Part shown: positions 1 through 23,503 of the stretch, piece by piece
Layout of the letters: each line of letters starts with the position of its first letter
How positions within the stretch are numbered: the stretch's first letter is position 1
From: Umbilicaria muhlenbergii
Taxonomy: Eukaryota > Ascomycota > Lecanoromycetes > Umbilicariales > Umbilicariaceae
Reading direction: 5' to 3'
Assembly: GCA_000611775.1 (NCBI GenBank)
Contig: KK106983.1
Span: 1,326,654-1,390,653, forward strand
Length of the DNA stretch: 64,000 nucleotides
The notes under the pieces: model-generated
What the model was told of the DNA's origin: nothing
The model's input: only the letters and a program-made list of their open reading frames with translations
Databases searched by the model: none
Translations under genes and position numbers: made by a program

Positions 1-2236
1 ATAGTGTAATACTGTTTTCTGCAGGTTTTCTTGACTTTTCAAAGTGAATTAATTCAGATTTACTGTCATTAAACTGTACTGTGTTTGTTTCTGCTCATAA
101 GAAGGCTGTTTCAGCTGTTGATTATAATTTTAAACAATTTTCTGCAGCTGATTTTTCAGTAATATATAGTGCCACATCATTTATATAACTGGGTTTTTCC
201 ATATCTGTGAATTTAGCCTTGATTTTTGAGAATAAATGCCTTATATATATTAAAAACAGTATTGAGGATATTAGTGATTCTTGTGAAATTCCTGTTTTGA
301 TTTTTTGCATTTCTTGTCTTTTATCATCAAAGGCTAATCCTGATTTTCTATTTTCTAGAAAGGATTTTGTTCATGATTGTATTTGTACTGATAACTTCAA
401 TTTCTTCATAATTGAAAGTAATTGCAGTAGTGATACATGATCAAAAGCTCCCTTGACATTTAGTAATAAACATGATAGAATATTATCTTTGTTCTGAGCT
501 GATTCTATATCATGTGTTAAGGTTAATATTATATTAATTGCTGATCTTTATTTTCTTTCTTCAGTTTAATCTTGATCTAATAAGTCTGTGACTTGACTTA
601 AATATGATAATCTAGTTGTCATGATTTTCTCTGTCACTTTGCTTAAACAATTTAATAATGTAATTATTCTGTAAGCTTTTGGTTTTGAATAATCTGACTT
701 TCCCGGCTTTTTTAGAATAACACTCATACCTTGATGTCAACATTCTGAGTGAAAGCCTGCTTGAATTAATTGTTTATAGATTGTAAACATTAATTCTGAT
801 ATTGCCTGATATGCTTTTTGAATAATAGCAAAGGAAATATCATTTGATTCAGGTGCTTTCTTTGCAGAGGATGTAAATATAACTTGTTTGACTTTATTTT
901 CTGTTAAGTCTGATCAATTTACATGTATTGTGTCTTGATTATCCTCAATTTCAGCTGTAGAAGGTTCTGAATACATTGCTGTAATGAATGCTTGACATTT
1001 GTCTTGAAATTCCTGACATAATATATCATTTTGATCTTGTATTGATGGTATTTTCTTCATAAGTCATAGCTTTGTGTATTTATATGCTTAAAATACATTT
1101 TTTTCACTTGCTTCTGTAAGAAATGTTGTTCAGGATTTTTGTTTTGCATTTTTAATAACTTGAAAGTACTCAGATCTGCTTTTTGTAAATTTAATTCACT
1201 GTCTTTCAGATTAATCATGCTTATTGTAATGTCTTCTTGCTGTTGACATTTCTTTTCTTAACCTGATGAGGTTTTCTGTTCATCATACTTTGAATTTGTT
1301 GCATGATTTTCATCTAGGAATATTGTCTTCTGCAGTTTGTGCAATTAAGTTTCTTAAGTTTTCAGCCATTTGTTTTAATGACTGATTTAAACTTATTGCT
1401 TTTGCATTTTGCTGTAATTCCTTTGTGAAGTTCTTTCAATCCGCTTTTTATATGTTAAACAGCGCGTTGAATGAGCTTTTCATCAGTGTAAGGTTTTCAG
1501 TAATTATTGAAAACTGAATAACCTCATGATCTGAATCAGTATAGACTTCTTCATTGACTTGTCAATCAATTATTTTCAGTATTAATTGATTTGTTGCAAA
1601 TGTTAAGTCTAGAACTGATGAATATTGTTTATTTACAATATGTTTAATGAACGTTATAGTGTCTGATATATTAACTAAATCACAGTGATTTATTTGCAGT
1701 CATTGTAATAAGCTTTCTGCATTTTTTGCGTCTGTGATTGTGAAGTTCCATCATGTGTGATGTGCATTAAAATCTCCACAGATTAAAGTTCTTGATGTTG
1801 TAATTATTTGACTTAACATCCTTTCTATCATTCATGTATTTAATTCAGGCTGAAGAGACCTTTTATTATATACATTTAACAGTAGAATTTCTTTCAAACC
1901 TGAGACAGAAATAAACAGAGCTTGTAAATCTGCATTCTTTGTTATATCTGATTTAAGTGTGCATTTTATTCCTTTGTTTGCTTTTGTAATAAATGTTAAA
2001 ACTCATGATCTGAGTTCTGACGTTGAGATAATGCTAGTAAATGCTGAGTGTGAAATAGTACTGTTATTTGACTCAATTCATGATTTTTGAATTAACACAA
2101 TATCTATTTTCCTCACTGCAGCTTTTAAACATGATTGCATGACATTTGTTGATCTATTACAGTTATGTTGAAAAATCTGTATTTTAAATAATTCCTGCAG
2201 GTCTGTGTTTGAATGTTGTGTGTTTATATTACACAT
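1..2236 (-). pseudogene. LINE ORF2: endonuclease-reverse transcriptase (decayed, truncated by window edge)
   Basis: The product would nick target DNA and reverse-transcribe the LINE RNA. I chose the ATG at 2234-2236 because it overlaps the ORF1 stop as TAATG. An APE-type endonuclease covers about 2190-1500, with GDFNAHH at 1757-1777 and an SDH motif near 1520-1535. RT covers about 900-1: block A reads NVKGAFDHV near 430-460 (first Asp now Asn), then GISQES near 270-290 (for the usual PQG-S), then YINDVALY near 169-195 (for Y-DD), then the KSELIHF thumb motif near 50. One frame spans the whole stretch with no frameshift that I could see. It is interrupted by roughly 16 TGA and about six TAA codons but no TAG; most TGAs fall where Trp is expected. 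Catalytic Asp losses mean it is inactive under any code. Confidence 0.88.
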
Positions 2237-2238
2237 TA
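2234..2238 (-). promoter_or_regulatory. ORF1/ORF2 stop-start overlap TAATG
   Basis: On the minus strand the ORF1 stop TAA and the ORF2 start ATG share one base (TAATG). Stop-start overlaps are known in some non-LTR elements, where the second frame is translated by termination and reinitiation. The overlap is seen directly; the coupling mechanism is inferred from family knowledge. Confidence 0.6.
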
Positions 2239-3165
2239 TTCATTCATGATTAAAGGGTCTCTGTCTGCTGAATAAGATTCAACTGCTTTGTAATATTCAC
2301 AGTCTTTGCTATTCACCTGGTGATTTTCTTTGCAATTTGCACACTTTATTATTATGTGACTGCATATTTCTTGTCCCTTTTTGCAAATAAAGCACGTGTG
2401 CTTCCTGATATAATGATTTTCAGTGCATATTTGGCATTCAACTTCATGCGTGCACTTATGCTGTGTGTGATCAAATCCTTGACATTTGATGCATTACTCA
2501 TAAGGTTTGCAGTCTGTGTATTCCGTGGTATGCAGTGAATTTTCAGTCATTATTAACTTAAATCTCAAGGCTTTTTCAGCCTCTTGACTGCTTGCAAAGG
2601 CAATGACTGCAGATGAATACTTTTTAAATTTTCTACTCTCTGCTGTAGACATTCAGCTTGGTTTACACATTAATTTTAAACCTTTATTGAAGATCTTTAC
2701 CTCATTTTTTAGCAATTGCATTCCCTCTGCATTGTTGAAAATCTCTGTAGATACTTCATGTAAAATTATCTTATATCATTTCTGATCTTTTCACACATGA
2801 ACTAGATTCAGGTTTAATTCTAACTCTCAGATATTTTTATATTGTAATAACTCTTCTGCACTGCTCTCTTCTACTGCAGTGAGGATTATACTATTTTGTG
2901 ATTTAGAAATAGTAGCTGTTGTAATCAACACCTTTGCAATTTTTGCATTTTTCAATGCATTGTTGACTTTGTCTTGAACTTGCATTGAGTTGAAGCTTGC
3001 TGTTGCAATTAGTATTTTTGATGTTAACAGTACTCTGCGTTTCCTTTGTGTAATCTGCTTAATCTCTTTAATTAATGCAGACTTTTGCGCCTTTTTAATC
3101 ACCTTCATTCATGGTTTATTGCTGTTTTGAGTCAACATTTGCGCAAATGTTGATTTTGAGTAAGT
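2236..3165 (-). pseudogene. LINE ORF1, C-terminal part with CCHC zinc knuckles
   Basis: ORF1 is the nucleic-acid-binding, gag-like protein of the LINE. A conserved basic stretch at 2830-3108 is followed by an esterase-free ORF1 core and by cysteine clusters. One clear CX2CX4HX4C knuckle lies at 2452-2493 and another at 2299-2343, with two irregular Cys/His clusters between them. Four TGA and one TAA interrupt the frame. One TGA is at a position where the family has Arg (CGA to TGA by CpG decay); the others are at likely Trp sites. The frame ends in TAA overlapping the ORF2 ATG. The upstream part of this ORF is at 10608-11420, beyond hAT-1. Confidence 0.85.
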
Positions 3166-3190
3166 TGTCATTTGAGTCAGGTCAGGTCAA
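3166..3190 (+). repeat. hAT-1 left terminal inverted repeat
   Basis: Starts TGTCATTTGAGTCAGGTCAG and is shared with the left end of hAT-2 at 33524. It pairs with the right end near 10583-10607. Just inside, around 3208-3222, is a short perfect palindrome, AACTCATGAGTT. Confidence 0.7.
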
Positions 3191-3760
3191 ATTGATGATT
3201 AAGGACTTAACTCATGAGTTCAGCCCCTTCATGAATCTGATATTCAGTGATCAACCAGGTTGACCCTGAGGTACTCATGCAGACACTGAATTAATCATAT
3301 ATGATTAAAATTGCTTAATCACCATAATAGTAGTAAGTTTAATATAAGTAATAACATCACTTTTCTTCTTATGTTATCACAGCTTTGCATTGTGTTGTTA
3401 TTAAAAGCAGGTATTGTGATAATTGAATACTTTTACATATTTTTAATTGAATTATTAATCCGCAAAGACTGATATTATACATTGTGAGCACTGTGCAAAC
3501 ATGAAGAAAAACATGATATGTTAAAAAAGTAATGCTCAAAGGTAATGCTCAAAGGTAATGTTTATTTAGAATTTGTGATGACTGTATACTTTTTTTAACT
3601 TTGCAGACTGTATCTGTAACTGATTTCATAACACAACTCAGCATTAATCTGCAGACAGCAATACTGATTGACTGATGCTGATAATGATGTGTTGCTCATA
3701 TGTTGAATTCATAGATTGTTTACTTTAACTGACTGCAGTTGATCTTCTCTGAGCTTCACT

Positions 3761-6200
3761 TCTTCATGCTGAAGTGAGGGAGGTCATCAGGTCATCAGAT
3801 GATAAAAACATGTTAAAATCATCTTGCTCTCTGCTCTTCAACACATCTTTAATTGTAATAAAAGCATCTGAGTCATTACTCTGCTCTGTTTTCACCCTCA
3901 TCTGATGCATATCAGTAAGTTCATCTACTCTCATATCATCTGAATCATTCATGTTGAACTCATCATGATTATTGCTGTTCATTGTCACTGTTTTGCACTT
4001 AACAGAGGTAAACTTCCTTCATTGAAGTGTCTTCATGAACTCATAAGCCTCCTCATCATCTGTTATAATTAACTCATTCAGAACAGAGGTTTCTTAAGTT
4101 CAGGTTTCAGAGGTGCTGACTTCCTCATCATTGTCATCATCATCAATGAGGTCATTCAACAAGGTGTTTCACTTATAATACTTAATTAAACAGAGCATAT
4201 GTATAATCTCAGTGCTCAGATGTTCACATCATCAATTGCAGATGTCTTTAATCATATTGAAGATGCATTTCACATTTATTTTAAAGACACATACAGCAAG
4301 AACATCTCTTGTCATCTGAAAGAGACCTTTAAGGTCACTGTAATTAACACTTCACATTTAATGATGTAATTAACTCAAGCCTCATATCAGCATTACCTTT
4401 GAGCATTACCTTTAATGAATCATTAACATAATTGACTGATGTGAAAAGATACTTAAAGATATCATTTTAAGTATTTATTCATCATTGATTCTTCAGCTTC
4501 ATCTGTTTAATTAATGCATTAAAATTCATATTCTGTGACTGACCTGCAGTGATAATTGAGTTCATAGTCAGACTCTCATATTTCAAGTAATGTAAATCAT
4601 AATAATCTTGAAACTGTTGATTTTATTTAATTTTTTAAGATTTTGTTACTTCCTTCCCCTATGATGCATTAGTCATGATCAAGCAGATATATGCATTGAA
4701 GTTATTTTATACTTAATCATCTTACATGACAGGTCTAAAATAATTGCAAGATTATAAATTTTTATAATAATCCCTCAACTTATCCTGGCAGGCTTTCAGG
4801 GCAGTGATCAGTTCATACTTTTAAAGAGTGATTTTTAACTGCACTCAGCAGCAGTGATCTGCAATGTGATTGATGAGTTGATTGTACATATATCAGGTCT
4901 TATGTATTATAACTTTAATAATTTTCAAAAGTGCTGCAGTTCAGTCTTTAAATGACTTTAATAATGTTAAAAGGTAACAGATCTGTTCTCATTTTAAATT
5001 AATAATTGCAAGAACTCAGAGCTTTCTATCTTGTTCATTAAAGACAAAGTTGTGCAGGGCCTCTCATAAAACATAAGTTTAAAAAAGCATGTCATATGTG
5101 AAATTTCATCATGTTTTAACATCTTGAATCATTTAAAAAGGTTTTTAATTTAAGCTGTTTACATAAACTTGCTGTTAAATATCTGCAAATCATTTGAATC
5201 TCTGTGAGGAAGAGTTGATTGTGATTGAAAGATATTAAATCTGTCACATGTTGTTAACATTCAAGCATTATCAATGAGCATTATCATTTCACTTGTCTTT
5301 TGCATGATGTTAATCAAAGATACCTTCTCTTGAATCTTTGTCAACTTGTTCACATTTTATATCTTCACATGATGATTGTTTCTGACATTCACATCAAGTG
5401 ACCTCAGTAAAGCCTTGACAGCAAGAGCTAAAACATGTGTCATGCATGATATTATTACTTCAGCATTGTCTCATTGAATATCATGATCACCGCTCAAGAT
5501 TGACTTCAGATGTGTGTGCATAATAATGTTATTAAAGATGTTATCTGTAGTGATAGTGAAGAACTTGTCCTTGATTTTAAAGATTTTTAAAACATTAAGA
5601 ATATGACTTGTCAGAGTGACTTCAATATGTGATTCATTTACATGCTTAAATCTCAATAAGGCCTCATTGTAGTTTCAGTTATTATCAATGTAATAAGCAG
5701 TAACCGTCAAGAAGAATAAATGATTATGAGATCAACAATTTAAAGTTAATGATACTTTATTATTTATCTGAGCAAGACTTTCTTGTATAATGAGCATCAC
5801 TTTTTAATATTGATCTGTGACAAGGTTTTAGATTTTATTGCAGCAAGGTATCTGAATATCATCTCAGAGCATCATAAGAGTGATATAAAGCTGCTTATTC
5901 TCAATGAATCAGAAGAAGGCATTCATAGATATGAGTGCATTAATAATTTACTGTTTGAAGGCCTCCTTCATGTATATCAGAATGTCAAGATTGCATACTG
6001 TTCATTTCTAAGAAATATCATAAAGGCATTAACTTTCAGCATTAATACTGATAAGAAAGGTAATACATAAAAAGAAACAAACTTACTGTTGACTGCAACA
6101 GTTCATTCAGTGTAGATTATAAATACTTTCACTTAAATGATATCTTGCAGCAGTCTGAATGCAAATGCTTCTTCATAATGCTGAAATCAGTGTTTTTCAT
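3761..6200 (-). pseudogene. hAT transposase (intron-bearing, decayed)
   Basis: The product would be the DDE-type hAT transposase that cuts and pastes the element. The best-conserved part is at 5030-5790 (minus): a TA-Y-ID-N block, then KIKDKFFTITTDNIFNNI at about 5515-5580, matching the hAT signature with its catalytic Asp and the NN pair, then a short THVL-LAVKALL segment. Upstream, about 5790-6007, is an AFKQ-like N-terminal stretch. A probable 59-bp intron spans 6066-6008 (GT...AG, branch-like AGTTAATGCC). The 3' end near 3761-3990 is acidic and ends MTSLTSA. Several in-frame TGA and TAA codons occur, at least three TGAs where hAT proteins carry Trp. The first exon is not identified. Confidence 0.75.
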
Positions 6201-8590
6201 ATTCAGGTGACTGATGACAGCTTGATAAAGCTTGCATTATAAGTTTAACTTTTCACTTCACATGACTGTGACCTGCTCAAACAGGTTTCAGTAGTTGAAG
6301 GACTGAGTAATGAATCTTTATTTAAAATTGCCTTTCAATTTGTCATGAGTGTGAAGATCATGTAAGGTTGACTTTCATCACTCATGAAAGAGTTTCACAT
6401 ATCACTTGTCACTTTTTCAGAAAACATGTGTCTTGAGAGTGTTGCATTGAAGTGCAATAAGTGATGATAGATTTCAAAAAGCATGAGGTAAGATTTAAGC
6501 ATCCTCAGATTTCTGAGAGGTTTATGATTATGAAAAAGAGATGAGAATTTCTTCTGCTTCTGAGAGAGAAAAGTCACTATCATATTAAGACATATTGATA
6601 GAAGTGTATGCAGAAATTGCAGTGATGAGTGATTTAAGAAAGAATATATTGTTGTGTAAAAAATAATTACACTTATATGCATATCAAAAGAGATGTCAGA
6701 TAAATATGTTACACAGAAAACCCTTTTTACTCTTGAAAGATAATGCTGAAAAATAATGATTAAAACACATGTATGAGGCATGTGTAACCCTGCAGTGTAA
6801 TTGAACAGATATCAGATTGCATGTACTTTGCATCAAAACATCTCTTTGCTCATCAAAGATAATCATCATGTTTTGTGTAACCCTGCAGTATTAATATTTG
6901 ATCACATTTATGATGCATGAAAAAGTCTGTTTGTGCAATAAAGATGATGATCATCTTATAAATAATCTTACAGTGATTTATGATGATCTGTTAAAAGATA
7001 TTAAGCTCATTCATCTTCAGTTTATAAGATCAAGTAATTAAAAAGATGCTAAAAATCATGAAAATGAAAGAAGTTGTGAAACAGTTATGATTAGATGAAA
7101 TTTAAGATTTCAACATGCTACTCACTTTAATAAGAATAGTCATATGTTAGAAGAAACACACTCTCTCATTATAAACTCATGACTTTAATTTTCATGTTAA
7201 AGTATGATATTATGCATCAATGAAAGTGAGCAAATGATAATGTCAGTAGATAACACCTGAATCTATTGTATAAATGTGCAGTTAATAAAAGAAAATTAAG
7301 TTTTAACTTCTTCTTCTGATGCAGATGTCTTCTCATACTTTGATTTTAAGCTCTCATCTTTTTTAATATCATTCATCACAAAGTTCACTGATTCTTCAGC
7401 TGCATAAGTATTATTCTTAGCTTTCAGATCATCCTTCAACTCATTAATGTTACATGCAATGTATGCAGGAAAATGAAAATTTTTTTAAAAATTTATAAGC
7501 TTCTTTTTCAGATTCTGTATTCATGTTAAAATCAAGCTTATCAGCATTATCTTCAAGCATTACCTCAGAGCTGACTTGCTTCAACAACTCATAATCAGCA
7601 TGATATATCAGTTATTCAAGATGCTGCATAATTGAAACATTATGTTTAAAAATTACCTCTTCAATCTCCTCTGACATTTATACTCATTAATCAGTAGATA
7701 ATGTAAATAAATAATGCTTATATCTGCTTATCTTCTTCTCTTCATCATCAGTGTCAGCATCATCATCATCTTCATCATCATCTTCATCATCATCTTCATT
7801 CTCTTCATCATTAATATTAATGTCTTCATCATCATTGTTCCTCTCATTGATGCATGTTAGATTTCACTTGATTTTGTTACTCTTTCACAGCAAGGCTTGA
7901 AGGAACTCATCTTTCACATTTTCATACTTAAAGATAATCTCATTTCAGATATTCATGAGATTTTGTTTAAATTATTTTGTTATAAGTGTAAGTAGCTTAT
8001 AAAATGAGCATTATTTATTAATCTTACCTGACAACTTCTTCTTGATATGTTTCACAGACTTAACTTCTCAGGCATTTTTCAACAAGACTTAATGTTCATC
8101 ATGACTCATTTCATTTCAACTTGATGTTATCTTTTGTATTTTTTAATGACATTTCAACTTAACCTGCTCATCTGCATTTCTAGCATGTGCAATTATAATT
8201 TGATTGTTAATTTCATTATAACACTTTTGCTGCTTTCTGATCATGCTTTCATGCTGACTATATTCACTGAGGTGCTTTTGTGAAGTGATTAATATAACAC
8301 TTATCTTATGTTGACCTGCTCACTGAGGTGTGATAGGTAGATTAATCATGATGAAGTAAAAAGAGGACTTAATTGCATCATTATTACATAAATTAATGAT
8401 CTGTCTTTTATGATGTGAGCATTACCTTTAATCATTACCTTGCTTCTGACATAAAAGAGTGAGGAAACAGGTGATCAAGTGTATTAATGAAGAAATGATG
8501 TGAGTTAAACAGTAAGTGTTAATAATTGTCATTATCATTAACATGTGAGTAATACCTGAAGAAATGAGACATGCTGCTAAATGATGAAGG
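6067..8590. other. hAT-1 middle region, no recognised gene
   Basis: This part of hAT-1 is absent from the two partial copies visible in the window, so it may be unique middle sequence or an old insertion. An acidic stretch reading minus-strand Asp/Glu repeats covers about 7735-7830 (a GAT/ATC-rich run), and another acidic segment lies near 7440-7680; these could be transposase N-terminal exons. A 16-bp direct repeat (TGTGTAACCCTGCAGT) occurs at 6781 and 6874. The open frame at 6395-6781 (minus) has no family resemblance and is probably accidental. Confidence 0.4.
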
Positions 8591-9259
8591 AGGATGAATA
8601 TTGAAGAGAGTTGATATACACAGCTGATAAGTTGTTCTTTAACTTGTGAATTTCAATACTGAGGCTTATGTGATTAAAAGCGCTGCTAGACAGGATCTGA
8701 TGTTAATATTAATTTACAACATTACTTAAATGATGAGGTGAAGTGCAAATCAAATGATGATAACATGAGCAGAGGTGAGTTGCGCAAGGAATGTTTATAT
8801 TTATGTATTTTAATCATGTTTTTAAAAACCTGTGTTGATATCACAGCATTCTGCCTCTGCAGTGAATGCACTGAAAGTTAAATGTTGATGTCACAACATT
8901 TCATCTCTACAGTGAATGTGCTAAAAGTGTTATGTTGATCTGACAACTTGATTATAGATGTGAAATCTGCAGCTGATCATGTTTTTTTTTCATGCACTTT
9001 AGCATCCACCTTCTACACCTCATTATTGAAGTTTCAGTTAAGTAATGCTTTTAGATAACATCTGTGATATTTATTCATGCTGACAAAGATTTACTTCTCT
9101 TTAAATCTTCAAGCTCTGCATACTTTCCTCATTATTTTTAACACATGTTTTTCATGTTGTCCTTCATCTAGATACTTGTCAGTTAAGTAATGTTTATAAA
9201 TAATGTCTGCATTCATTCTTGATGACTGATATTTTATTATCTTCAGATCTTACACACCT

Positions 9260-9430
9260 TTTCAATACACTTCTTCATCTTTGACATATCTTCTCAACTT
9301 TAACACATCTCATCACCTTCAATAAATTCATCACCTTCAATGCACTTTGTCATTTTTAAAACTCATCATCTTCAACACATCCTGTCATCTTCAATACACT
9401 CAGTCACCTTCAACTCACTCTGTCACAATC
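9260..9430 (+). repeat. degenerate short tandem repeats (TCACCTTCAAYRCAC-type)
   Basis: About eight imperfect units of 17-20 bp based on TCACCTTCAA followed by a CAC-rich spacer. The same tract, shortened, is at about 13190-13270 in hAT-b. It lies upstream of the plus-strand gene candidate and could be a promoter-proximal or transposase-binding array; function is not shown. Confidence 0.55.
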
Positions 9431-9439
9431 ATCACTCTT

Positions 9440-10300
9440 CATTATATTTAACATATCTCTTTAATGCACCTCTTGCCTCTTTTAGCTAGTCATACGCCTT
9501 CATCACTTTTCACAAGTATAATTAAACAAGTCAACACTCATAATAATGCTGAAAGTTAATGCCTATTAGGTAACTGAAGTATGATGTGTATTAAGAGTAA
9601 AGTCAGACATCTGTCAGCTGTCTTCTCTTCTTTTAAAGATGAGCTTTATCAAGTTGAAAAATCAGTGAAGATCTACAAATCATCAAAGAATAAAGCTGCA
9701 GAGAAGCATCAGAAAGACTTAACATAATGATGATTAATTACATAATCTGCACCTCAAGGAAAAGGACCTGCTCACTCAGAGCAGTCAAAAGTTTTATGAA
9801 AGATCAAGTCAAGAAGTAAGTTTCTCATATTAATTGATAATGTCAGAAGTTAATGCCCTTTTGCAGTGAGAACCTTTCATGAAATTAAACATTATCAACT
9901 TATGAAAGAGCTGCTTATTCTGAAAGCTGCATTTTAACATTTAATACATGAAATCATGATTGATCTGCCAGGCATGCAGAACATTAATGTTAAAAAAATA
10001 TGTTGACAGAAGACTGCTCTGCTGATGTTGCAGAAGTCAACAAAGGTGTTGTTGATTTCATTTTTTAAGAGTAAGTTGTCTGAAATACAAAGTAATACTA
10101 AAGTTAATGCCCTCACGCAGATATCAATTTGCTCATCATTCATGAAAAGCAGGTCATTATTCAGAGTAAGGATATAACTTTAACAAAACATCTCTTACTT
10201 CTTAATTCAGGTGGAAATCTTGTGTTGTATATCATTGAAATGCAGGATTCAAGGGCCATACCTGCTTCAAGGCAGCATGATGACTGAAGAGGTAATGTTA
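9440..10300 (+). pseudogene. unidentified intron-bearing gene candidate in hAT right half
   Basis: Four intron-like segments follow one another on the plus strand: 9516-9569, 9816-9866, 10071-10120 and 10166-10210. Each begins GTA and ends in AG after 45-54 bp; the first three share the branch-like motif AGTTAATGCC 8-13 bases before the 3' site. Regular spacing and repetition of the same signals make chance unlikely. The exons between them do not give a protein I recognise, and stops are present. hAT-b carries the same structure with some GT sites mutated. It may be a second transposon gene or captured host sequence. Confidence 0.45.
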
Positions 10301-10582
10301 AATGATAATGCTTAAATTGTTTCTGTAGGATAGAATATTAGTGTAGTAATAAGAACATGAAACAAAAACTGAGATCACTCTGATCTGCATAAGTGATAAC
10401 CCTACTGCGCAAAAGTAAAGTTTTAACCCTTGTGTGAATAAAATGCATCATGTATAAAGGCTTGATGAGTTCTGCAGGACCCTCAGTGTCTTACTTTATT
10501 ACTCACCTCAACCTGACACGTCAAGGTGAGTTCAAAATCATTGAGACACTGTCACTCAACTTGATTTAACTCAGCTTAACTC

Positions 10583-10607
10583 AGTGTCACCCTGACCTGC
10601 AGTGACA
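10583..10607 (-). repeat. hAT-1 right terminal inverted repeat
   Basis: Read inward from 10607 it starts TGTCACTGCAGGTCAGGGTG, matching the left end near 3166 imperfectly. The same end is at 14423-14447 in hAT-b. Confidence 0.7.
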
Positions 10608-11420
10608 GCCTAATTTTGAGCTTTGATGTTTTTAAGCATTTTCAGCATTTTCAGTCATACTCACTGAAAAGTTACCTGATTGAGCTGAATTTTTCATCAT
10701 ATATTCAAGCTCTTGTTTTGCACTAGTACTGAAGGTTTCAGCCTTATCTGATGCAATTTGACTGTTTTGTATTTCCGCGTGCTGTTTTTAACTGTTTTGT
10801 GCAAATGCTGCATTTGCAACTTTTTACATTTTCCTCATGTTTTCTGCAGCTGTTTTTACACTTGCATTCACACTGTCTGTTTTGCGCAGTAGTAAATCCA
10901 TTTTAGAATTTATGACTTGAATTTGGCTTTGCAAGTGATGATTTTGCATGTTTGTGTTCAAATTTGCCAATTGTAAACTTTTCACATTTTGTGAGTTTTG
11001 TGACTTTGCGAGGTGGGAAATTGCCTGATTTAGGTTAAATTTTTGCAACAGGTGTGATGCATTGACTAGATTTAACAGCACTGAATTTGCTGCTAAATAC
11101 AGTGATTTCATCATTTTGTGTCTCAAATTCAGCGTTTTTCCACTTTTACTCTGTTCATTATTTTGCGGATTTTCACAGTTTTCCCTTGAACTTTGAATTC
11201 ACACCTTCGCCGGTTGGCTTTCCTGTGAGAAAGTGGTGTTTTTGCGTTTTTTACCTTGCAATGTGACTTTTTTAATTTGCCTGTGTGTTTGTGAGAAGGT
11301 GAATAGGCTGTTTTGATTGCTATTCATAACAAAGTAGTTTTCCTTTGTTATAAATGCTGCTGGCGTAGGTGTAGTGCACTGATTACTGTTTTCAGACTTC
11401 ATGTCTGATGTTATATTCAT
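10608..11420 (-). pseudogene. LINE-1 ORF1, N-terminal part
   Basis: Upstream half of the ORF1 whose other half is at 2236-3165. The ATG at 11418-11420 (MNITSDMKSEN) is the first plausible start; an earlier start is not excluded. About 11200-11420 is polar and basic. About 10824-11126 is Gln/Asn-rich with a heptad-like leucine pattern that suggests a coiled coil. The split at 10608 is caused by hAT-1. Interruptions include TGA codons at probable Trp sites. Together the two halves would make an ORF1 of roughly 570-580 codons, a normal size for Tad-like elements. Confidence 0.7.
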
Positions 11421-12480
11421 TATAACATTTTTGGTGTTTTCCTGGCATTTCAGTCCTGGTGATATTCTGAATTTACCTCAAGTTTAATATTCCTTCCTTT
11501 ATAAATTTAAGCACAATCAAGAGTCTAAAGGCCCTGTTTTTTATCTCTGATACTCAGAATAAGTAGCCCTTATGATCCTTAGGAATTTAAGTCTTATAAA
11601 AGCCCCTAAAATCACCTGTAGCCTGGCTTAATCTGAGCTTATTCAAATAGAGAATGATATAGACTCACTGATCTTTACTTTTTATATATAAAATGCTTGA
11701 CAAGAGTTCTTTATATTTCTTATACTCAGAATAATGCTTTCCCCTGCAGGCTTGTTTGCTAATCTGAGCTTTTTACAGTCCTTTATGTTAAACTTAAAAA
11801 GAATGACCTTTAGTATTGTAAAGCATGAAGGAAAATGCAGAAAAAGTGAAGTTTCATGATATTTTGCAAGGTGATTGATTTAAGGTTTAGTGCTTACACC
11901 TCATCAAAATTCTCAAGAACCGTGACTTGACGTGTGTTGAACAATAACAAAGACAGAATACAGTGAATAACAATGTGTTTTTAATGTTTTGCAATTTGTA
12001 AAAGCAGTGCAAGATAGATTTAAATTTAATTCTTACATGACAAATCAAGAAAAAGGTGTTGTGATTGTTGTGTTGTTGTTTTTGTGATTTTTGATTGTTT
12101 TTGATGTGAAGATTGCAACAACTTTGTGATATGCTTGACTTCATCATGCTTTCGCAACCACTGCTGGCTTTGAGAATTGAAAAAAAGGGTTTAAGTCTTT
12201 GAACTGAGTAGTTTATGAGGCCTATGACAATGATATATCATATGTGTGACTTGATTGCTTTTTGGTTTCTTGTGATATGCTTGAATTCACTGTGCTTTCA
12301 CAATTATCACTGACTTTGAGAATTGAAAAAAAGAGTTTAAGTCTTTGAACTGAGTAGTTTATAAGATTTATGACAATGATATATCATATGTGTGACTTGA
12401 TTACTTTTTGGTTTCCGCGTTTTTTTTTTGTGAGGGTAGATGTTAAAGAAGGGTAAATGTCAAAAGAGAATAAATATTAA
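11421..12480 (-). other. LINE-1 5' untranslated region (inferred)
   Basis: About 1 kb without a convincing gene lies upstream of ORF1. It includes a 146-bp tandem duplication (12124-12415) and ends near a T-rich run at 12420, just before hAT-b begins. Its position between ORF1 and the disrupted hAT-b fits a LINE 5' region with internal promoter repeats, but this is inference from position only. The open frame at 11887-12147 is not supported by homology. Confidence 0.5.
12124..12415 (+). repeat. 146-bp tandem duplication
   Basis: Two head-to-tail units, 12124-12269 and 12270-12415, each starting TTGTGATATGCTTG and ending TTTTGGTTTC. Differences are almost all transitions, the first unit keeping more C and G. 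The arrangement resembles the tandem promoter monomers of some LINE 5' regions. Confidence 0.85.
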
Positions 12481-14447
12481 AGAAGAATGAATATTGAAGA
12501 AGACTGATATGTGCAGTTAATAAATTATTCTTTAACTTGTAAATTTCAATATTGAAGCTTATGTAATTAAAAGCGCTGCTAGACAGGATCTGTTGTTGAT
12601 ATTAACTTATAATATTATTTAAGTGATGAGGTGAAGTGCAAACCAAATTATAATAACATGAGCAGAGATGATTTGTATAAGAAATATTTATATTTATGTA
12701 TTTCAGTTATGTTTTTGAAAACTTATATTAATATCACAGCATCTCACCTCTGCAGTGAATGCATCAAAAGTCATATGTTGATATCACAACATTTTACCTC
12801 TACAATGAATGCATCAGAAGCGCTGTGTTGATCTGAAAACTTAATTATAAATGTAAAATTTGCAGCTGATCATGTTTTTTTTTCATGTGCTTTAACATCC
12901 TCCTTCTACACCTCATTATTAAAGTTTCAGTTAAATAATGATTTTAAATAATACCTGTGATATTTATTCTTGTTGACAGAGATTTACTTCTCTTCAGATC
13001 TTCAAGCTCTGCATGCTTTTCTTATTATTTTTAATATGCATCTTTCATGTTGTCCTCTGTTTAAATGCTTGTCAGTTAAATAATGTTTATAAATAATGTC
13101 TGTGTTTATTCTTGATGACTGATATTTTATTATCTTCAGATTTTACATATCTTTTTAACATGCTTCTTTATCTTTGACATACCTCCTCAACCTTAATGCA
13201 TTTTATCACTTTCAGCAAACTTGTCACCTTCAACACACTTTATCACCTTCAACACACTCTGTTACATTCATCATGCTTCATCACATTTAATATATTTCTT
13301 TAATGCACTTCTTGTCTCTTTTAGTTAATTATACGCCTTCACAACTTTTCACAAGTATAATTAAACAAGTCAACACTTATAATAATACTGAAAGCTAATG
13401 TTTACTAAGTAATTGAAGTATGATGTATATCAAGAGTGAAGTTAAATATCTGTCAACTGTTTCTTCTCCTTTTAAAGATGAGCTTCATTAAGTCAGAAAG
13501 TCAGTGAAGATCTACAAATTATTAAAAAATAAAGTTATGAAGAAGCATCAGAAAGACTTAATATGATGATGATTAATTATGTAAACTGCACCTCAAGAAA
13601 AAGGACTTGCTCACTCACAGACATTAAAGATTTTGTGAAAAATTAAATTAAAAAATAAGTTTCTCATATTAATTAATAATATCAGAAGTTAATGTTTTTT
13701 TGCAGTGAAAACTCTTCATGAAATCAAACATTATTAGATTACAGAAAAACTGCTTATTTTGAAAGTTGCATTTCAACATTTAATACATAAAATCATGATT
13801 GATCTGCCAGGCATGCAGAACATCATTAATATTAAAAAAATATATTAACAGAAGACTGCTCTGCTGACATTATAAAAATCAACAGAGGTGTTGTTGATTT
13901 CATTTTTTAAGAGTAAATTATCTCAAATACAAAGTAATACTAAAGTTAATACCCTCACACAGATATCAATTTGCTCATCATTCATGAAAAGCAGGTCATT
14001 ATTCAGAGTAAGAATATGACTTTAACAAAACATCTCTTGCTTCTTAATTCAGGTGGAAATCTTGTGTTGTATATCATTAAAATGCAGAATTCAAGGGTTA
14101 TACCTGCTTCAAGGCAGCATGATGACTGAAGAGGTAATGTTAATTAATAATACTTAAATTGTTTCTGTAGAATAGAATATTAATGTAGTAATGAGAATGT
14201 GAAACTTAAACTGAGATAACTCTGACCTGCATAAGTAATAACTTTAATGCACAAAAGTAAAGTTTTAATCCTTGTCTTAATATAATGCATCATGTATAAA
14301 GGCTTGACAGGTTCTGTTGAACTCTCAGTGTTTTATCTTATTACTCACTCTGACCTGACATGTCAAGGTGAGTTTAAAATCACTGAGACACTGTCATTTA
14401 ACTCAGCTTGATTTAATTTAACTCAGTGTCATCTTGACCTGCAGTGA
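12480..14447 (+). mobile_element. hAT-b: right half of a second hAT transposon
   Basis: Matches hAT-1 8590-10607 end to end, including the intron-like segments and the right terminal repeat (inward from 14447: TGTCACTGCAGGTCAAGA). Its left part is missing here. Since LINE-1 reads leftward from this junction, the simplest account is that LINE-1 inserted into hAT-b, leaving the left part of hAT-b beyond position 1. On the right it abuts LINE-2, into which it probably jumped. Confidence 0.75.
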
Positions 14448-15360
14448 CAACTTACTTTCATGTAGTTATTTTTGTGTGTTTTAAAAATATTAAAGTATTT
14501 TTAATTCCTTCCTTTGTACAAAGTAATGATTATAATGTTAATTGTGTGAATTTTACTTTTTACATTTTCTGTTTCAACTTCTGCTGCTCTTGTTTATACT
14601 GCCTGCAATTTAACAGTAAATGCTCTGATGACTGTTTTATCTTATATTAAAAATATTAATTATTTTCATATATAGGTAATCTGCAGAGATATGATTTAAA
14701 ATAATCATGTTTTAATTTTATTTGTGTAAATGTTGTAAAGGTTAACCTTTCACATTTGTATAATTCTTTTGACTTTATGATTAAGTCAGGTTTTATAACA
14801 TATATCTTGTATTATTGTCCTTGATTTGCATTTTGTCATTTTATTAATTATTCTTCTTTAGCAATTTCTTTGATATCTTTTTTAATATAAGATAAAGAAA
14901 TATATATGCCTTGAGTCTGCATTAATAACTGCATTTTCTGAGTTTAAAGCTTCTTGTTTGACTGCTTTATCTGTTAATTTATTTCCTGATATTTGATTAT
15001 GACTGAGAATTCAATGTATATGAATTAACTTTTGACTCTGCCATAATTGCTGTAGATTTAACTGAATTTGTTGTAACACTTTAGTATTTGTTGACTTTTA
15101 TAATTTTTATATTGCAGATTGACTATCTGTAAATATTCAAATGTTTTTCCCTAAAAATTATCTTTAAATTGCTTGTTTTGTAGCTTGCATTATAGCATAA
15201 AGCTTTGCATCTATTACTTCAGTGTAAAAACCTAGAATGTAGCTTTTTGTATGTCATAGGTTAATGACAATTCAGAATTTATGTAAAGTATGCATTTTAT
15301 AAGTGATTTAACAGTGTTAATGAGTCATTTGAAAACTCTGCACTGCTTAATCTCAACTTC
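14448..15360 (-). mobile_element. LINE-2: 3' segment with RNase H domain
   Basis: The minus strand from about 15290 to 14900 encodes a retroelement RNase H: AKLYAIMQATKQAI, then IFTDSQSAI around the catalytic Asp (about 15110-15130), then HIH-I-SHN-ISGNKLTDKA (about 14960-15025) with the His and the last Asp. Lower coordinates down to 14448 look like the C-terminal tail and 3' untranslated sequence. Stops are a mix of TAA and TGA, with one Trp still TGG, so it looks older than LINE-1. RT is not seen; the fragment ends where Gypsy-A sequence begins. It cannot be the missing end of LINE-1, which runs off the left edge. Confidence 0.75.
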
Positions 15361-16582
15361 ATTCCTTAGTTATTAATTTTATATAATTAAAATCACATAA
15401 TCTTTATATATTTATATCTCATGCTGTCACATACCTCAATTATACTTCCCTTTCTAGTAAGGAATATTATAATTCAACAGTTTTAATAACTTTATCTTCA
15501 AAAGAGTGATGACTTGAGATAAGATACAGATTTAAAATCAATTATGTTAAACTTCTGAAGCAGAATTAAACATAATAATTAAAAATTAATAACATAATAA
15601 TGAAACATCACTCATTTCCTCTGACATCAGTGAAGTGAACTTCATGAGTGAAGGATCCTCAGGTGAAATGATGCACAACATTAATAATGAGATTACATAA
15701 GTGAGATGATAATGAGATGAACTTTTAAAGTAATAAAAGCTGCAGCAACTCTGAACAGAAGTTTTAATATTATAAATTAATTTACTTAAACATTCTGTTA
15801 TTCATGTTGATACCTCAGTTGAGAGATTCTTCAACTTGATAAACACTGAGTCTGTAATAAACAAGTAAAGCGCTGATGAATCACTGTTAATATGAAATAT
15901 ATAATTAAGAATTCAGGCAAAGGAGTTGCTGCTATATCATGATAAGAACATGAAGAAGCATTTAAATTAAATATGAAATATAAAAAATACTTTTTATTTT
16001 AACTCAGCTGATTTCCTTTATGAAGAGGATAAGATAATTTACATCATGTAATACTTAAAAAATGAATCAAAGGAGGTGTAATTATAAAATGATAAAATTA
16101 AAAATTATTTCACTGTTATTTAAAATGATTTTATGAAATTCCTGCTCAATATTATTGAGGACTCTGTAAATCATCAGTTTTATATTATTTAATTGTATAA
16201 TGATGCTGTTCAATTACTTCATTAATCAGTTTAAGCTTTTAATAATTATTTAAGCACCTTGAAAGCTCAGTTACCTTCTTACAGTGAAAAGCACATGAGG
16301 ATTCACTTTTTTACAAAATTAAAACTTGAGGTCTGAGCAGCCTTGATGAATTATCAGGATTTACTCACAACTTAAAAAAAATCATCATCTTGACTGCATG
16401 CTTAAAGAATAACTTATGTTTGAGAGATGCTGTAAAATTGAAAGCAAATCTTAATATGATAATTATCTTCAATTATAAACTTGAGTCATCATTGAAGTCT
16501 GCTGAGAATAAGGATCACAAGCCTGATGAGAGCAAGAAGAAAAATAAGTAAAATGATAAATATAAAAATAAATTAATGAAGA
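15361..16582 (+). mobile_element. Gypsy-A, part 1: 5' end and gag region (fossil)
   Basis: First of three pieces of a plus-strand Ty3/Gypsy fossil. Its start is uncertain: a TG-type LTR start may lie near 15424 (TGTCACATACCTC), but the matching 3' LTR is not in the window. About 15600-16560 reads as degraded gag, polar and basic toward its end. The piece stops at 16582 with GAAGA, the target duplicated by Gypsy-B. It carries many interruptions and is clearly broken. Confidence 0.55.
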
Positions 16583-16920
16583 TGTAACAGGTGATGTCAT
16601 AGTGACAGAAGTAATATTATTGCTCTTTAAACTGTAAGTATCACAAGTAATACTAAGCAGGTTTAAAAGATAAAATTAGTAAATTATCTTTAATACATGA
16701 GTTGAGCATGAACTTCTAACTATGAATCTACCTGTGATTATATAAACTATAAGAGACTTATGTGCTCAGTGTGCTCATCATGTTCATCACAGTGAGCAAG
16801 ATGAGCAACTTGATGTAACACTTCATGCTCATCATGCTCAACAGGTGAGCAAGGTGAGCAGTATTTTAAGTACATGCACACTGCATACTTCATTAATATT
16901 ATAATATGAGAGCTGTAACA
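16583..16920 (-). repeat. Gypsy-B LTR (3' LTR in element orientation)
   Basis: 338 bp, TG...CA. It matches 23504-23841 with 16 transitions. At several sites one LTR has CA where the other has TG, as expected if an ancestral CG was lost on opposite strands. GAAGA lies directly to the left. Confidence 0.93.
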
Positions 16921-19900
16921 TTAGCTCCTCCCTCAAGGTTTTTATTCTTAAAAACTTAAACATCTTCATGCTTTCTTCTTGAGTGCAAAAGAAACTGAAC
17001 TTTTCTTAATAATGTCATAATTTTCTTCATAGGCTCAACCTTGCTCCTTTCATCATGCAATCATGTAGATGATGTGTTGATGATGTGAAAAATTGTTGTG
17101 TAAATGATGATTTTGAAAAGTGTGTCATCTGCATATAAATTAAAAAGTCTTGTGATCTTTCTTTCAACAGTGCTGACTGAGAAAAGATGAAAGCTGAATT
17201 AACTTCTCTGAAGGAAAAGACTTCTGCTGCTGAGGAAATAATTGCTGAGGCATCAGCTAAATTAGTTCATCTCTGTAAATAGAAAAAACTGTTGCAACAT
17301 CATCAGAAAGACTTCATATCCTGTGAGTTTATGAACATTAAAGAGTTGAAGGTGAAGAAGAGTAAGCAAGTGAAAACTTCAACTTTAAACATTACTTCTG
17401 ACCTCTTTAATTTCTCAGTGTTGAATGATCTCTGAGGTTCAGGTTCTGTTGTCAGAACTGATGTAATTTTGCTGCATAATGAGTGAAATTTTCTTCTGAT
17501 TCTCATGTGTTTCCTGCTGTGTCATACCCTTTTCACTTGATTAAATAATGAAGCTCATCATCAACTTCCTGTTGATTTAGAATTTCTTTTACCTTAAACT
17601 CAATATCTTAACTTTTTGAATCAATTTCTGATGAATTCATCTGTAACAGTGTTTTCAGGTCTGCTGATTTAAATAAAGATACATGAAATACTGAATGTAT
17701 CTGCATGAATGATGAAAGTTTAAACTTATAATTGACACTTTCTTTCTTCTTCACAATTTAAAAAGGTCTCAGCTTCTTGTGATTTAATTTATTACTTAAT
17801 CATGTTGTCTTAATGTTGTGATGTAAAAGATATACTTTACTCTTCTTTTCAAGAGTAGATTTTTTATCTTTTTTCTTATTATGATATACTGCTGATTTTT
17901 CTGAGGTAAATTTTATGTTTCATTGTAATTTCTTATGAAGATTTTTTAAGCAGTTCACTCATATTTTCACTTTCTGTGCTATGACTACTAATCCTCTCAC
18001 TTCATTCATAAGTGAGCTAAACTTGTAATTAATGTAAAATGATGATACCTTCATGAACTTTGTTGTTGTCATGTTGTAAGTTAACTGAGCTATTAGTAAG
18101 AGTTTTACTCAATTGATTTGTTAATAATTAACATAGCAACACAGGTACTGTTTCAACATTTAATTTAAACATTTCATCTGTCTGTCTGTTTGAGGATGAT
18201 AAGTGATGAACAGCTTATGACAGATCTTTAGTTAATTCATTAATGATTTTTAAAACTTAAAGATGAAGAGTTTATCTCTGTCTGAGATTATTTCTTTCAG
18301 CAGCTCATAATTGACTGTTATAATTTTTAAAAATGTATATATGAGTTCTTCTGCTGATGATGACTTCTTATAAGATAAGAAGTATTCATACTTCATAAGT
18401 CAGTCTGTTATGACAAGTATTATATTATATAATACTTTCATCAGAGGTTCCTTCAATCTTGATAATTTTATCATGAAGTTTAATGTGATGCTTGATCATG
18501 ATTATGCTGATGTTGATGATGACTTTAATAATTCATATGATCTGTGATGTTCTGCTTTGTTCTTTCAGCAGGTGTCACATTTCTGAATAATTTCTTCAAC
18601 TTTTTTCCTTATTCATGAGAAGTAATATGTTCATGTGAGTTGTTTCAATGTTTTCTTGACTTCTTAATATTCATTCATTTTGTTAGAATGACATTCTTCT
18701 ATCAGTGTTTCTCATAAACTGATTGATACATAAATTAAGTCTTAAAAAAGTAAGAGGCCTTCTTGCTTTTTAAAGCTTTCATGATCATTAATATTCTGAA
18801 GAACTTACTGCGTTAACTTGTCATTCTTCAACACTTTTTGAATTCAGTTTTCAAAAATGTTATCCTCAACTTTTATTATAAAGTTGACTTCTCAATTGTA
18901 AATTATATTATCATGCTCATCCTCTTGAAGGATGACTTGATTCATGATTAACTTTTCTTTTAAGTAGTCAGCTCATTTGTTGAGAATATTCACTTTGATG
19001 TTCTCTGATTCTTTTCAATAATGAATTTTAAAGTTGTATTGTGATAATTCTTCTGATCAATGAACCTGTCTTCAGTTTAGAACTTTCATTGTCATAAAGT
19101 ATAACAGATTCTTATGATTTGAATACATTTAAACCTCATGCTTTGATTCTTTGAGATATACATGTCATTGTTTGAATGTATCAACAATAATTAATAACTT
19201 CTTGTCATGTATTTTATATTCTTGTTCAGCACCTAAAAGCTTTCATGAGTAATAAGTTATTAATTATAAACGTCTCTTATCATCTGATTGATGAATGCAT
19301 GCTTTTATAGCTTCATCTGATGTGTTTGTCTTGAGTGTAATAAGTTTCTCAGGGTTGAAACTCATGAGAATTAATTATGATGTGAAGTGCTTCTTCAGCT
19401 CTTCAAAGGATTTTTGCACTTTAATGAATTAAACAAATTTTTAATTCTTCTTTGTCAACTCTGTTAAAGATGCTGTGATTTTAAAATACTTCTTAATAAA
19501 CTTTCTGTAGAAGTTTGCAAAGCTTAAGAAGAATTATACTTCCTTGATATTTATTAAAACTGATCATTTAATCATGAATCTGATTTTTTTCAGGTTCATC
19601 TGTAGGCCTTTTAATGTGATGATAAATTCAAGAAATTGAACTTCTTTAATGTGAAAAAGACTTTTCTCAAGCTTGATGCATAAGTTAGTGTCTTTTAACA
19701 CTTGTAGAACCTTTTAAACATGTTCAACATATTATTCCTTTATCTTCAAGTATATCAGTATATCATCAAGGTAAATGACTATGAACTGATTTAAATATTG
19801 TCACAAGATGTTATTAATGAAAGCTTAAAAAGTTGCTGAGGCATTAATTAATTCAAATGATATTATCAAATACTCATACAATCCTGAGTGTGTTCAAAAC

Positions 19901-20381
19901 ACTGTTTTTCATTCATCATCTTCTTTTATCTGTATCTGATTGAATGCTCTCAGAATATTGAACTTCATGAATCATTATACTTCTTAAAATCTATCCTGCA
20001 GTTCTGAGACAAGCAGCAACAGGTAACTGTTTTTTATCATTATGTTGTTTAATGCTTTATAATCAATGCACAACCTCAATGAACTGTTTGATTTTAAGAC
20101 AAACAATATCAGATATTCTGCTAAAGACTGAGATTCATGAATGAATCCTTTTCATAGATTTTTCTTTAAGTATTCTCATAATGCATTTAACTTCTGAGGT
20201 GACAATGAGTATATAAGTTGCTTCATCAGTTTATAACCTTTCATGATCTTGATCTTATGATTTTATTCTTAATGTTTCAGCAAGACATCCTGTTCCTTTA
20301 CTGCTGTAAACAATTCTTTGAAGTCTTTATATTCTTTAAAGATAGATAACTTGATAATAAAGTCTCAGTCATTATCAACTC

Positions 20382-21221
20382 ACATCAGCAATTTAGCAAG
20401 TTAGCTTTGAGTTAATTTTTAGCACTTTGAGCGCTCTGAGCTTCTGATCTCATGTTTCAGTTAACAGCCGCTCTTAGCACCTGCTGAGCACTTTGAGCTC
20501 AACCTTAAATCTTGAGCAGAACATCAAAATTTTGTGATAAAAAAACAGTTATTAAAACAATTGTTTAAACAAGTACACACACAGTGTTATAATAACAGTA
20601 AAACTTATAATAAGTAAACTTTTGCTAAAATTCACTTTTCTGCAATAAAAAATCATGATTTGTTGAGTCTGAAAGCACTGTATAAGTGTTGAGTTCTGAA
20701 TATTTAAAGAACTTCAAGATTTTCACCACTTAAAAATTTACACACTTTAATAACTTTTGCACCTCAACAGATATAAAGAAACTTTCAATGCATAAATTAT
20801 AAAAAACAGTATTCTCTATTAATGTTAAACTAAAAGTTTCTTCATAACTGCTGTTGTTCTTAAGTTATATTTAATTCAAGTTTTCAACAGCGAAAAATCT
20901 TTCAAAAAAAGTCACATACTTTGAATAACTATTGCGCTTTTATACTTATAATATAACTTTCAGGTTATAAGTTGTAGAGAATAAGCTGTTGAAGAGTTTT
21001 CTTATACAAAGTTTCTTTTTATATGTTGTTGTTGTTGAGTTATTCAAAAAGTCATCAAAAGTCTTTAAAACTTTTCAATAAAAAGTTTTTTATTATTCAT
21101 GAAGGTATAATAGTTATTTAAAGTGTAAGATTTGTATGAACTCATTTACTGCTCAGAGAGTGCTCTGAGAGCATAAAGTACTATTAACTAAAATCTTATT
21201 TTTGAGCGGGCTGCCAAGTTG
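20382..21221 (-). repeat. H2: unclassified modular repeat inside Gypsy-B
   Basis: About 840 bp matching H1 (53887-55001) in reverse orientation and outlasting all protein-coding similarity of Gypsy-B. The ends are rich in AGCGCTC/GAGCACTC-type motifs; the middle holds two degenerate modules about 175 bp apart, each starting AATAACTNTTGC (20749 and 20924). No coding sequence, LTR signature or clear target duplication was found. It could be a MITE-like element or another non-autonomous repeat. Confidence 0.75.
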
Positions 21222-23503
21222 TGAATGCATTTAGTTCACAGTATCTTTGCATCAGGATTCTTTAACTCCTCATGTGTTTTTTTCATTGTTATAATGAAGA
21301 CTTTCACTCCTTCAGGTGAGTTCAGGATTGAATATAACTTCATTAAAGTATTTTCTTTTATGAAGTATATCTCATTTTCAGCTCAATCAATCATGAGATT
21401 GATTGTTTGAAGTTAAAATATACTTAAAATTATGTCACTTCCTGACTGCTTCATGATGTCAAAACTGATTTTTTTCTCAGTGTTGATCAATTCAAACAGG
21501 TATCAGAACTGTTTCTTTATTTACTCATTCATTATTGTGTTTTATGAGGGTCTCATCAAACTCTTGAAGTAAATAAAAGTTTCACTTCTCTCAAATTTTT
21601 ATCTTGTTCATTTTTGTGAACCTTGAATTCAAGAAATTCTCTGTACAGTCATTGTTGATTAACAGTCAAGCTGAGTGACCTTTCACTTTAACTTAAACAT
21701 GAAAATTGCTCACATCTTCTGTGACAGTGATTTCTTTAGCAATCACTTCTTTTAAAGACTTTAAATTAAGCATCTTTGAGAGTCTCTGACCTGAAGAGCC
21801 TTCTAGTTTTTTGAATTAAACAAGAGGAATCTCAGATTCTCTTTCACATACTTAAAGTTCTTTGAGTCAACTTTCTTATCTGAATATTATATCAGATTCA
21901 ACTTCAAGTATTCACTTTGAAATTCTTAAACTTTCATTCACAGTTTTCTTGAAACATGTGCTTCATCAAGGGTAACATACCTTCCTTTGATGATGAATTT
22001 TGAACTCTTTAATAATGTTTTTTTAAGTATGTTTTAATAATTCATGTTCTTGACTTCACCTTTCTGAGTGAATGCATTTTTAATTATTCATAGAATTTGT
22101 TCTTGTAACAGGCTCACATGATTTATTTTTATAATAAACTCACATGATTTATTTCTGTAACAAGCTCACATGATTCTCATAATTCTCAGGAAATTCTTTC
22201 ATCACTTTAAATACTTCTTTATAAGTTTTTAACCACTGTTCTTCACAGGTAAATGCTTAAATGTCATTATTTTTTTAATGAATTTTTTAAATCTTCAGAG
22301 TCAGTTATCTTCATAAAGTCCTTCTTCTTATTAAATGAGAGCATTATTTTATTACTGTCAACATGATTATCTTCTTGATTGAATTAATCTCATTAAACTT
22401 GTTACTTCTTTAAGCTCATGACTTGATTTCAATGAGAGATCATGACATATTCTTTTGTCTTCTTCAGTTAATGTGAAAATTATTCAGAGTCATCTTTATC
22501 ACTCTGATGTGTGTGACAGTCATCATCATAATATGCTGTTTAAAACATAACTTTGTGATTATCTTTCTTTTTTACTTTTTATGTGACAGCATATGTTTTT
22601 CTTGATTGAATAATCTTTTCTGAGACTTAATAATCTCAGGCAAAATGTTTTAATTTTTTACAATTATAATAATTGTTTCTGTGAGGCTTTTTCTTCTTCT
22701 TTGAACTTTTTTTCACTGAAATTGAAACCTGAGTGACTGCATTGATCTTCATAAGTTGAGGTTTGTAGTAAAGTTGATTATTATACTGATGCTCATGATT
22801 CTTCTGAGCTCTTCATGATATGAGAATCTTGTGACTCTTCTTTAAACTTCATTCATAAGCTTAATTGTTGATGATGATTAATCATTTAATCATTTCTGAG
22901 AGCATGACAGAGTGTTTAATCTTGAAGATTTCATTCTTCATCACATTCTTTAATCTCTTATAATATTGTGCTGTCAAAGCAATATTGTCTTAATTTATAT
23001 GTGAGATGAGTCTTTGAAAGTTTATTATGTACATAGCAGCTGCTTCTTTCTGTTGAATATTATAAATTTTTCACTTCACTGTTCTCTCTTCATTAATTGT
23101 TTTAAACATTATCCTTATCTGCTTCTTGAATTTCTTTAATTCATGAAAGATCTCATTAATTAAGTCATCCTGATCTTCACTCTTGTTGTCAAGGTAATTT
23201 AAAGGATAAGTTTAAATTAGTTCAAAGCATCTGACCTCAGGAATGAGGAGGTGAACAACACTTTCTTTAATTTTAACATAAATAAAGACTTGTTGAACTG
23301 CAGGTACATGTCAAGCTGAGTGAAAAACAAGTTTAATAATCTTCTCTCATCAAGAAACTTATTCAGCAATGAGATCTTAATTCAGATTATTTTGTTAAAG
23401 AAGTGTTCAGTGACTGATTCTTCTCTGTCAGAGGATTTGAACATCATGAGACTGATGAGTTAATTCATTGCATGACTGATACCTCATAAGTTGATACTCA
23501 AAG

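Follow-up and report, generated by a model that had tools for sequence, protein, structure and literature searches.

RIP in Neurospora and other Pezizomycotina changes C:G to T:A on both strands of repeats. In its canonical form it works on duplicated DNA after fertilisation and before meiosis, spares unique host genes, and leaves repeats rich in TpA and poor in CpA and TpG. It is described as preferring CpA and is said to yield TAA and TAG, not TGA (passages of PMC3828140). Known RIP signatures, as set out in sections of PMC4352252, are CpA, CpT and CpG, with TpCpG in Microbotryum. CpT is the first or second signature in Botrytis, Sclerotinia and Magnaporthe, and target preference varies between species and may follow the RID sequence (same sections). 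CpG-biased RIP-like mutation is reported for Tuber, Microbotryum and Rhizoctonia; for Rhizoctonia, part of one account (PMC4014442) describes CpG hypermutation, with TGA as the commonest gene stop and the named main product of CpG change. In systems with DIM-2, the contexts reported are CpA for Dim2-linked changes in Zymoseptoria (portions of PMC8016269) and CGN and CAN for 5mC in Pyricularia MAGGY, with CCA and CTA hardly methylated in a high-copy MAGGY line (0.43% and 0.36%; excerpts of PMC7979813).

The window analysed here is a stretch of 64,000 nucleotides (C3:1326654-1390653) from the 34.8 Mb, seven-contig genome of Umbilicaria muhlenbergii. As in canonical RIP, changes are from C:G to T:A on both strands of repeats, the host genes looked at are intact, and candidate RID-like and DIM-2-like genes are present. 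Unlike in canonical RIP, CpA is the least-hit dinucleotide, TGA is the main stop codon produced and none of 127 one-kb windows is RIP-positive (highest product index 1.21, lowest substrate index 1.04; thresholds, from part of PMC7882544, are >1.15 for the product, <=0.75 for the substrate and >0 for the composite index). Over positions 1-44000 the product index (TpA/ApT) is 0.71 and the substrate index 1.64, compared with 0.66 and 1.23 in host loci. Because the CpA test of canonical RIP failed, we call the process RIP-like and not RIP. CpG is strongly hit, as in the CpG-biased systems, but no CpG context is hit as often as CCA, CTA is about level with CGT and CGG, and the upstream base has little effect, in contrast to the TpCpG of Microbotryum. 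CpT, favoured elsewhere, is low here and is hit mostly as CTA. A DIM-2-like gene is shared with Zymoseptoria and Pyricularia, for which CG and CA preferences are reported in the parts of the sources cited above, whereas the C preferred here is followed, after any one base, by A (C-N-A).

The portions of the literature cited here give the signatures CpA, CpT, CpG and TpCpG, and none that is set by the +2 base and spares CpA. We found no C-N-A preference in accessible parts of the open-access RIP literature, a body that leaves out Clutterbuck's 2011 comparative RIP study, and none is described in the available sections of a 2026 review (PMC13297926). RIPCAL operates on CpN and not on trinucleotides (part of PMC2621366).

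The composition of the window and the retroelement features outside its first element are as follows.

Positions 1 to 44000: AT-rich block of about 30% GC, with C nearly extinct before GA and CA (composition).
Positions 44001 to 64000: less mutated part, GC 0.33-0.40 per 2 kb (composition).
Positions 18118 to 20383: strongly mutated copy of a reverse-transcriptase (RT) element family whose relatives elsewhere are less AT-rich.
Positions 27361 to 27744, minus strand: retroelement RNase H-like domain, PF17919/PF17917 (Pfam, stops as X).
Positions 31819 to 32928, plus strand: retroelement RNase H-like and integrase zinc-binding domains (Pfam, stops as X).

The less AT-rich relatives of the element at 18118 to 20383 are L001, L003, L004, L006-L008 and, in part, L005. 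On both strands of positions 1-44000, C/(C+T) falls to 0.001 in CGA, 0.014 in CCA, 0.019 in CGT, 0.05 in CGC and 0.088 in CTA, and CpG occurs at 0.06 of expectation; in 33 host loci the same ratio lies between 0.45 and 0.74 over 16 contexts. The order is similar in positions 44001-64000 (CGA 0.004, CCA 0.07, CGT 0.14, CGC 0.16, CTA 0.27). In simulated decay of host DNA, misfit was 0.115 with one rate, 0.041 with four CpN rates and 0.007 with 16 CpNpN rates, in a fit that carries no parameter penalty, so that more rates fit better by nature, and that assumes the starting composition of the repeats. The fitted CpNpN rates were 8.2 for CGA, 3.9 for CCA, 2.2 for CGT, 1.7 for CTA and 0.45 for CAA, with the others at 1.22 or less.

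The direction of change can be read from an element of 717 bp whose terminal repeats measure 120 bp (TG...CA). It is near-intact in L079, L085, L086 and L087 and damaged in L081 and L082, whose loci have GC contents of 38% and 35%. The 120-bp repeat, met in the GC-rich locus L002, occurs partly in pairs with a spacing of about 597-600 bp; from their sequence these pairs look like LTRs, and the element is TRIM-like. An exact 4-bp target duplication occurs in five of the six pairs examined, the sixth (L082) being without one. Since two copies, L079 and L085, have identical LTRs, the element is young.

With near-intact L079 as the reference against L081 and L082 together, C>T (85) and G>A (81) are similarly frequent and together make up all but three of the 169 changes, the rest being two A>G and one G>C. 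Most favoured are C sites followed by A at the +2 position, in the order CCA (40/46 sites hit) and CGA (31/44), CTA (18/38), and CAA (11/70); overall, 100/198 C-N-A sites are hit, compared with 65/491 C-N-B sites (p 2e-23). Among the remaining contexts the counts are 5/14 for CGT, 7/20 for CGG and 2/10 for CGC; 6/20 for CCG, 20/78 for CCT and 6/48 for CCC; 6/52 for CTG, 4/62 for CTC and 2/52 for CTT; and 4/52 for CAG, 2/44 for CAT and 1/39 for CAC. By dinucleotide, CpG is hit at 45/88 sites, CpC at 72/192, CpT at 30/204 (18 of the 30 hits being CTA) and CpA, the least, at 18/205. The base upstream matters little (28% hit after A or T, 22% after C and 17% after G).

These counts depend somewhat on the copies compared. 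With L085 as the reference, C-N-A is hit at 93/188 sites and C-N-B at 71/493, and CGG (11/20) and CCG (10/20) stand level with CTA (20/42), which counts against a pure C-N-A rule. In the lightly damaged L087 the contrast (19/99 vs 13/246) is carried by CCA and CGA, with CTA (1/19) and CAA (2/35) counting against. Transition sites common to L081 and L082 number 53, compared with 19.8 expected if they were independent; the counts from the two copies are therefore not independent, and the shared sites may be hotspots or reflect common descent. Private changes are less skewed (C-N-A 12/27 in L081 and 14/32 in L082, against a base rate of 99/345 C sites). A comparison of the paired LTRs within an element is free of this problem because their differences arose after insertion: in L081, L082 and L087, 24 of 25 are transitions, and C-N-A is hit at 15/41 sites compared with 8/95 for C-N-B (p 2e-4).

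In other families the spectrum was scored by leaving out one copy at a time and comparing it with the column majority, pooling the LINE (11 copies) and the RT family (6 copies). CCA was changed at 33/130 sites and CCB at 90/1154, CTA at 76/501 and CTB at 291/4877, and CAA at 187/2182 and CAB at 308/4901; no CGA sites remained for counting. Counting against the rule, CAA is changed no more often than CAT when the LINE is taken by itself (108/1605 vs 102/1339). Transitions dominate in both families and run in both directions relative to the majority. The LINE has 313 C>T and 306 G>A changes, along with 136 apparent T>C and 126 A>G changes, and such reversals are expected, though not proven, to reflect columns in which most copies had already changed. 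When LINE variable columns are counted without polarity, C varies before A at 295/544, before C at 91/126, before G at 29/37 and before T at 224/413. All contexts vary, and we take this to mean that the hottest are saturated.

These data give good support to a RIP-like mutator whose preference depends on the third base. We consider it very probable, as one joint statement, that a C-to-T mutator acting on both strands of repeats as a RIP-like defence damaged the LINE and the other repeat families examined, that the genome uses the standard code, and that the LINE, present in many copies, is dead. The preliminary description had suggested a RIP-like process that hits C before C or G and makes TGA and not TAG; the kind of process stands, and the rule is sharper, C-N-A. 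On balance, and with modest confidence, we favour a RIP-type mutator of repeats whose target is largely set by the +2 base, which spares CpA, and which is driven by RID or DIM-2 with a shifted preference.

Four DNA methylase matches were identified in the genome. L039 matches PDB 9bap, a 1456-residue cytosine methyltransferase that we take to be Neurospora DIM-2 (E 3.9e-173), and contains PF00145; we consider it a DIM-2-like gene. L040 also contains PF00145, together with a motif that is presumably RID-like, and is a probable RID-like methyltransferase gene. We infer that one or both of the enzymes encoded by L039 and L040 drive the process; it would then be a RIP-like defence of the genome with a changed target preference, carried out by DIM-2, by a cytosine methyltransferase of the RID/Masc1 type, or by the two together.

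The presence of a DIM-2-like gene, the strong depletion of CpG in positions 1-44000 and the grading of damage between copies also fit slow loss of methylated C, in which 5mC deaminates in heterochromatin with no active repeat-induced burst. A pure CpG process nevertheless could not produce the spectrum of the LTR element, in which the changes are not confined to CpG: CCA and CTA are hit and CGC is low. Slow loss would need methylation of C-N-A, and thus the same new preference with slower chemistry, and we regard it as conceivable but rather improbable. Somewhat less probable still is an overlap of two processes, CpG deamination and a separate mutator of CCA and CTA. The high counts at both CpG and CpC speak for such an overlap, and in L087 the effect of the +2 base within CpG is not significant (8/22 vs 4/22, p 0.31). 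However, in L081 and L082 the +2 base matters within CpG (CGA 31/44 vs CGB 14/44, p 6e-4), and a like effect is seen in CCN and CTN, as a single enzyme reading C-N-A would give. Context-dependent C-to-T changes in retroelements might also recall an APOBEC-like cytidine deaminase acting on retroelement cDNA, but we give this very little credence since the two strands are changed about equally in both the LINE and the LTR element and the LTR pairs differ by changes made after insertion.

With C-N-A as the target, T-N-G becomes T-N-A on the complement strand. TGG (complement of CCA) becomes TGA there, TAG (complement of CTA) is attacked in its turn and becomes TAA, and TTG and TCG are altered silently in a reading frame; on the sense strand, CGA becomes TGA and CAA becomes TAA. 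Such a target explains why TGA stands at Trp and Arg sites and TAA at Gln sites, and why TAG, being attacked itself, is scarce. Of 46 TGG on either strand of the 717-bp element, 38 became TGA, two TAG, one TAA and one TCA, and four were unchanged.

The window begins with an element to which these expectations apply directly.

Positions 1 to 2236, minus strand: LINE (non-LTR retrotransposon) reading frame of 745 codons, continuing past the window end.
Positions 1517 to 1888, minus strand: LINE endonuclease domain, PF14529, E 1.9e-17 (Pfam, stops as X, residues 117-240).
Positions 44 to 709, minus strand: LINE reverse transcriptase domain, PF00078, E 1.9e-15 (Pfam, stops as X, residues 510-731).
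Positions 1 to 3160, minus strand: LINE stretch common to other genomic copies at 84-96% identity (DNA search).

The two domain matches in this frame identify the element as a LINE. The DNA search returned 61 pieces, the window's own included, from 40 scored of 131 candidates, and the window copy and ten further fetched copies make up the set of 11. All 11 have 28-32% GC and each has in-frame stops. Read without a shift from 2236 to 1, the frame of the window copy contains 17 TGA, six TAA, no TAG and one TGG by codon count, in close agreement with the preliminary description (about 16 TGA, about six TAA, no TAG and a single remaining TGG, without a frameshift); the other five frames contain 63, 60, 60, 101 and 35 stops. 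In the ten other copies, TGG occurs at least once at six of the 17 TGA columns, CGA at two and neither at nine, and some of these columns read TAA. The earlier view that most TGAs lie at Trp sites is thus borne out for six, the other 11 being not so supported, and in place of the one Arg site then reported there are at least two, because two columns show CGA in relatives. The sole TGG column is TGA in all ten other copies. CAA is seen in four of the six TAA columns, the other two being TAA throughout, and two of the ten copies have one in-frame TAG each.

TGG as a fraction of TGG plus TGA is 1/18 in frame and 7/139 over the other five frames of the LINE stretch, so that the out-of-frame survival of TGG formerly proposed is not confirmed; TGG is equally rare in and out of frame, and there is therefore no frame-specific conversion. 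Of the genome's 877 RT candidates, 150 matches were scored; 149 of these have at least one stop, and the 150 together contain 682 TGA, 106 TAA and 15 TAG.

The weakest explanation, raised as an alternative in the preliminary description, is that the nucleus reads UGA as Trp and that the LINE was formerly so translated. It accounts for 17 TGA in an unshifted 2.2-kb frame, several at Trp sites, and for the single TGG, but has a negligible probability given TGG at the conserved Trp sites of host kinases, ordinary eRF1 motifs, TGG no rarer in frame than out of it, TGG or CGA in other LINE copies at eight of the 17 TGA columns, and TAA within the frame. A change of genetic code is excluded. The kinase sample comprises the 30 best of 141 matches; 27 of these loci contain the motif D-x-W-[SA]-x-G, with its Trp encoded by TGG in all 27 and by TGA in none. 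Within the 30 matches there are 91 TGG, four TGA, three TAA and one TAG, and the four TGAs were judged by eye to lie in introns. These unique host genes are spared by the mutator: TGG is kept, GC is 0.50-0.59 and CpG is at 0.91 of expectation, values that hold for these best-scoring matches. The eRF1 locus (L076) carries both GTASNIKS and YLCDNKF, which we take to be ordinary stop-reading motifs, where changes for UGA recognition had been suggested as a sign of the altered code. The first match in an eRF1 family search was taken as DOM34/pelota and set aside, and the eRF1_2 family led to L076. A search with RF00005 gave 19 matches from 63 scored of 1258 candidates, and among those 19 ARAGORN called no Trp tRNA with either anticodon; a yeast tRNA-Trp query gave no match in the genome.

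An apparent sign of a new genetic code is thus dismissed as false, and the case illustrates how a mutator is able to imitate one. Since RIP indices are built on CpA and TpA, genomes of this kind would score as RIP-free, and, if our reading is true, a C-N-A form of RIP may be widespread and overlooked. In such genomes, nonsense changes driven by repeats are predicted to show up as TGA, not as TAA or TAG, and the origin of RIP target choice is made testable.

Several other elements deserve mention. The near-intact LTR elements L079, L085 and L086 escaped the mutator. So did L002, a GC-rich LINE-like element (C3:3997214-4000876; GC 0.61) whose RT frame is open for 544 codons; it is without mutator damage and has no other long genomic match in a DNA search. 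A solo copy of the 120-bp repeat lies at 2997-3116 of L002, by eye between the endonuclease and RT parts. The possibility that this repeat is 5S rRNA was rejected, as Rfam found no rRNA in L079, L002 or L060. L066 (C2:6664600-6667400) and L067 (C1:6548600-6551300) are two kinase-like pseudogenes, related to each other, that carry TGA and TAA in frame. The idea that they are damaged copies whose intact parent survives was dropped, because the fetched loci include no close parent. L041 (C5) is a further C5-methylase-like gene with a AGFSCVDFSRLN stretch, and L042 (C1) is its degenerate relative, with 79% DNA identity over 947 bases. The two were rejected as a mutator pair: their differences (36 C>T, 39 G>A, 32 T>C and 25 A>G) carry no clear signature.

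The preliminary description also mentioned a hAT transposase with TGA at Trp sites. In five stretches of the window, 3201-6202, 6201-11202, 11201-16201, 23501-28501 and 28501-33501, all six frames were compared with Pfam at E values of at most 0.001, with stops as X, and gave no hAT family. The window also contains two long repeat pairs, 3161-6062 with 33519-36443 (89% identity; no Pfam match in the 3161-6062 copy, which was scanned) and 8578-10616 with 12471-14458 (83% identity; no Pfam match in the scanned copies). Finally, the AT-rich locus L060 (C1:10594996 region) has a tRNA family match of 40.5 bits that is uncalled by ARAGORN. The tRNA-like stretch itself is without a match in the window, and other stretches of L060 recur there at 16670-16860, 22954-23557, 36486-36898 and 43309-43716.
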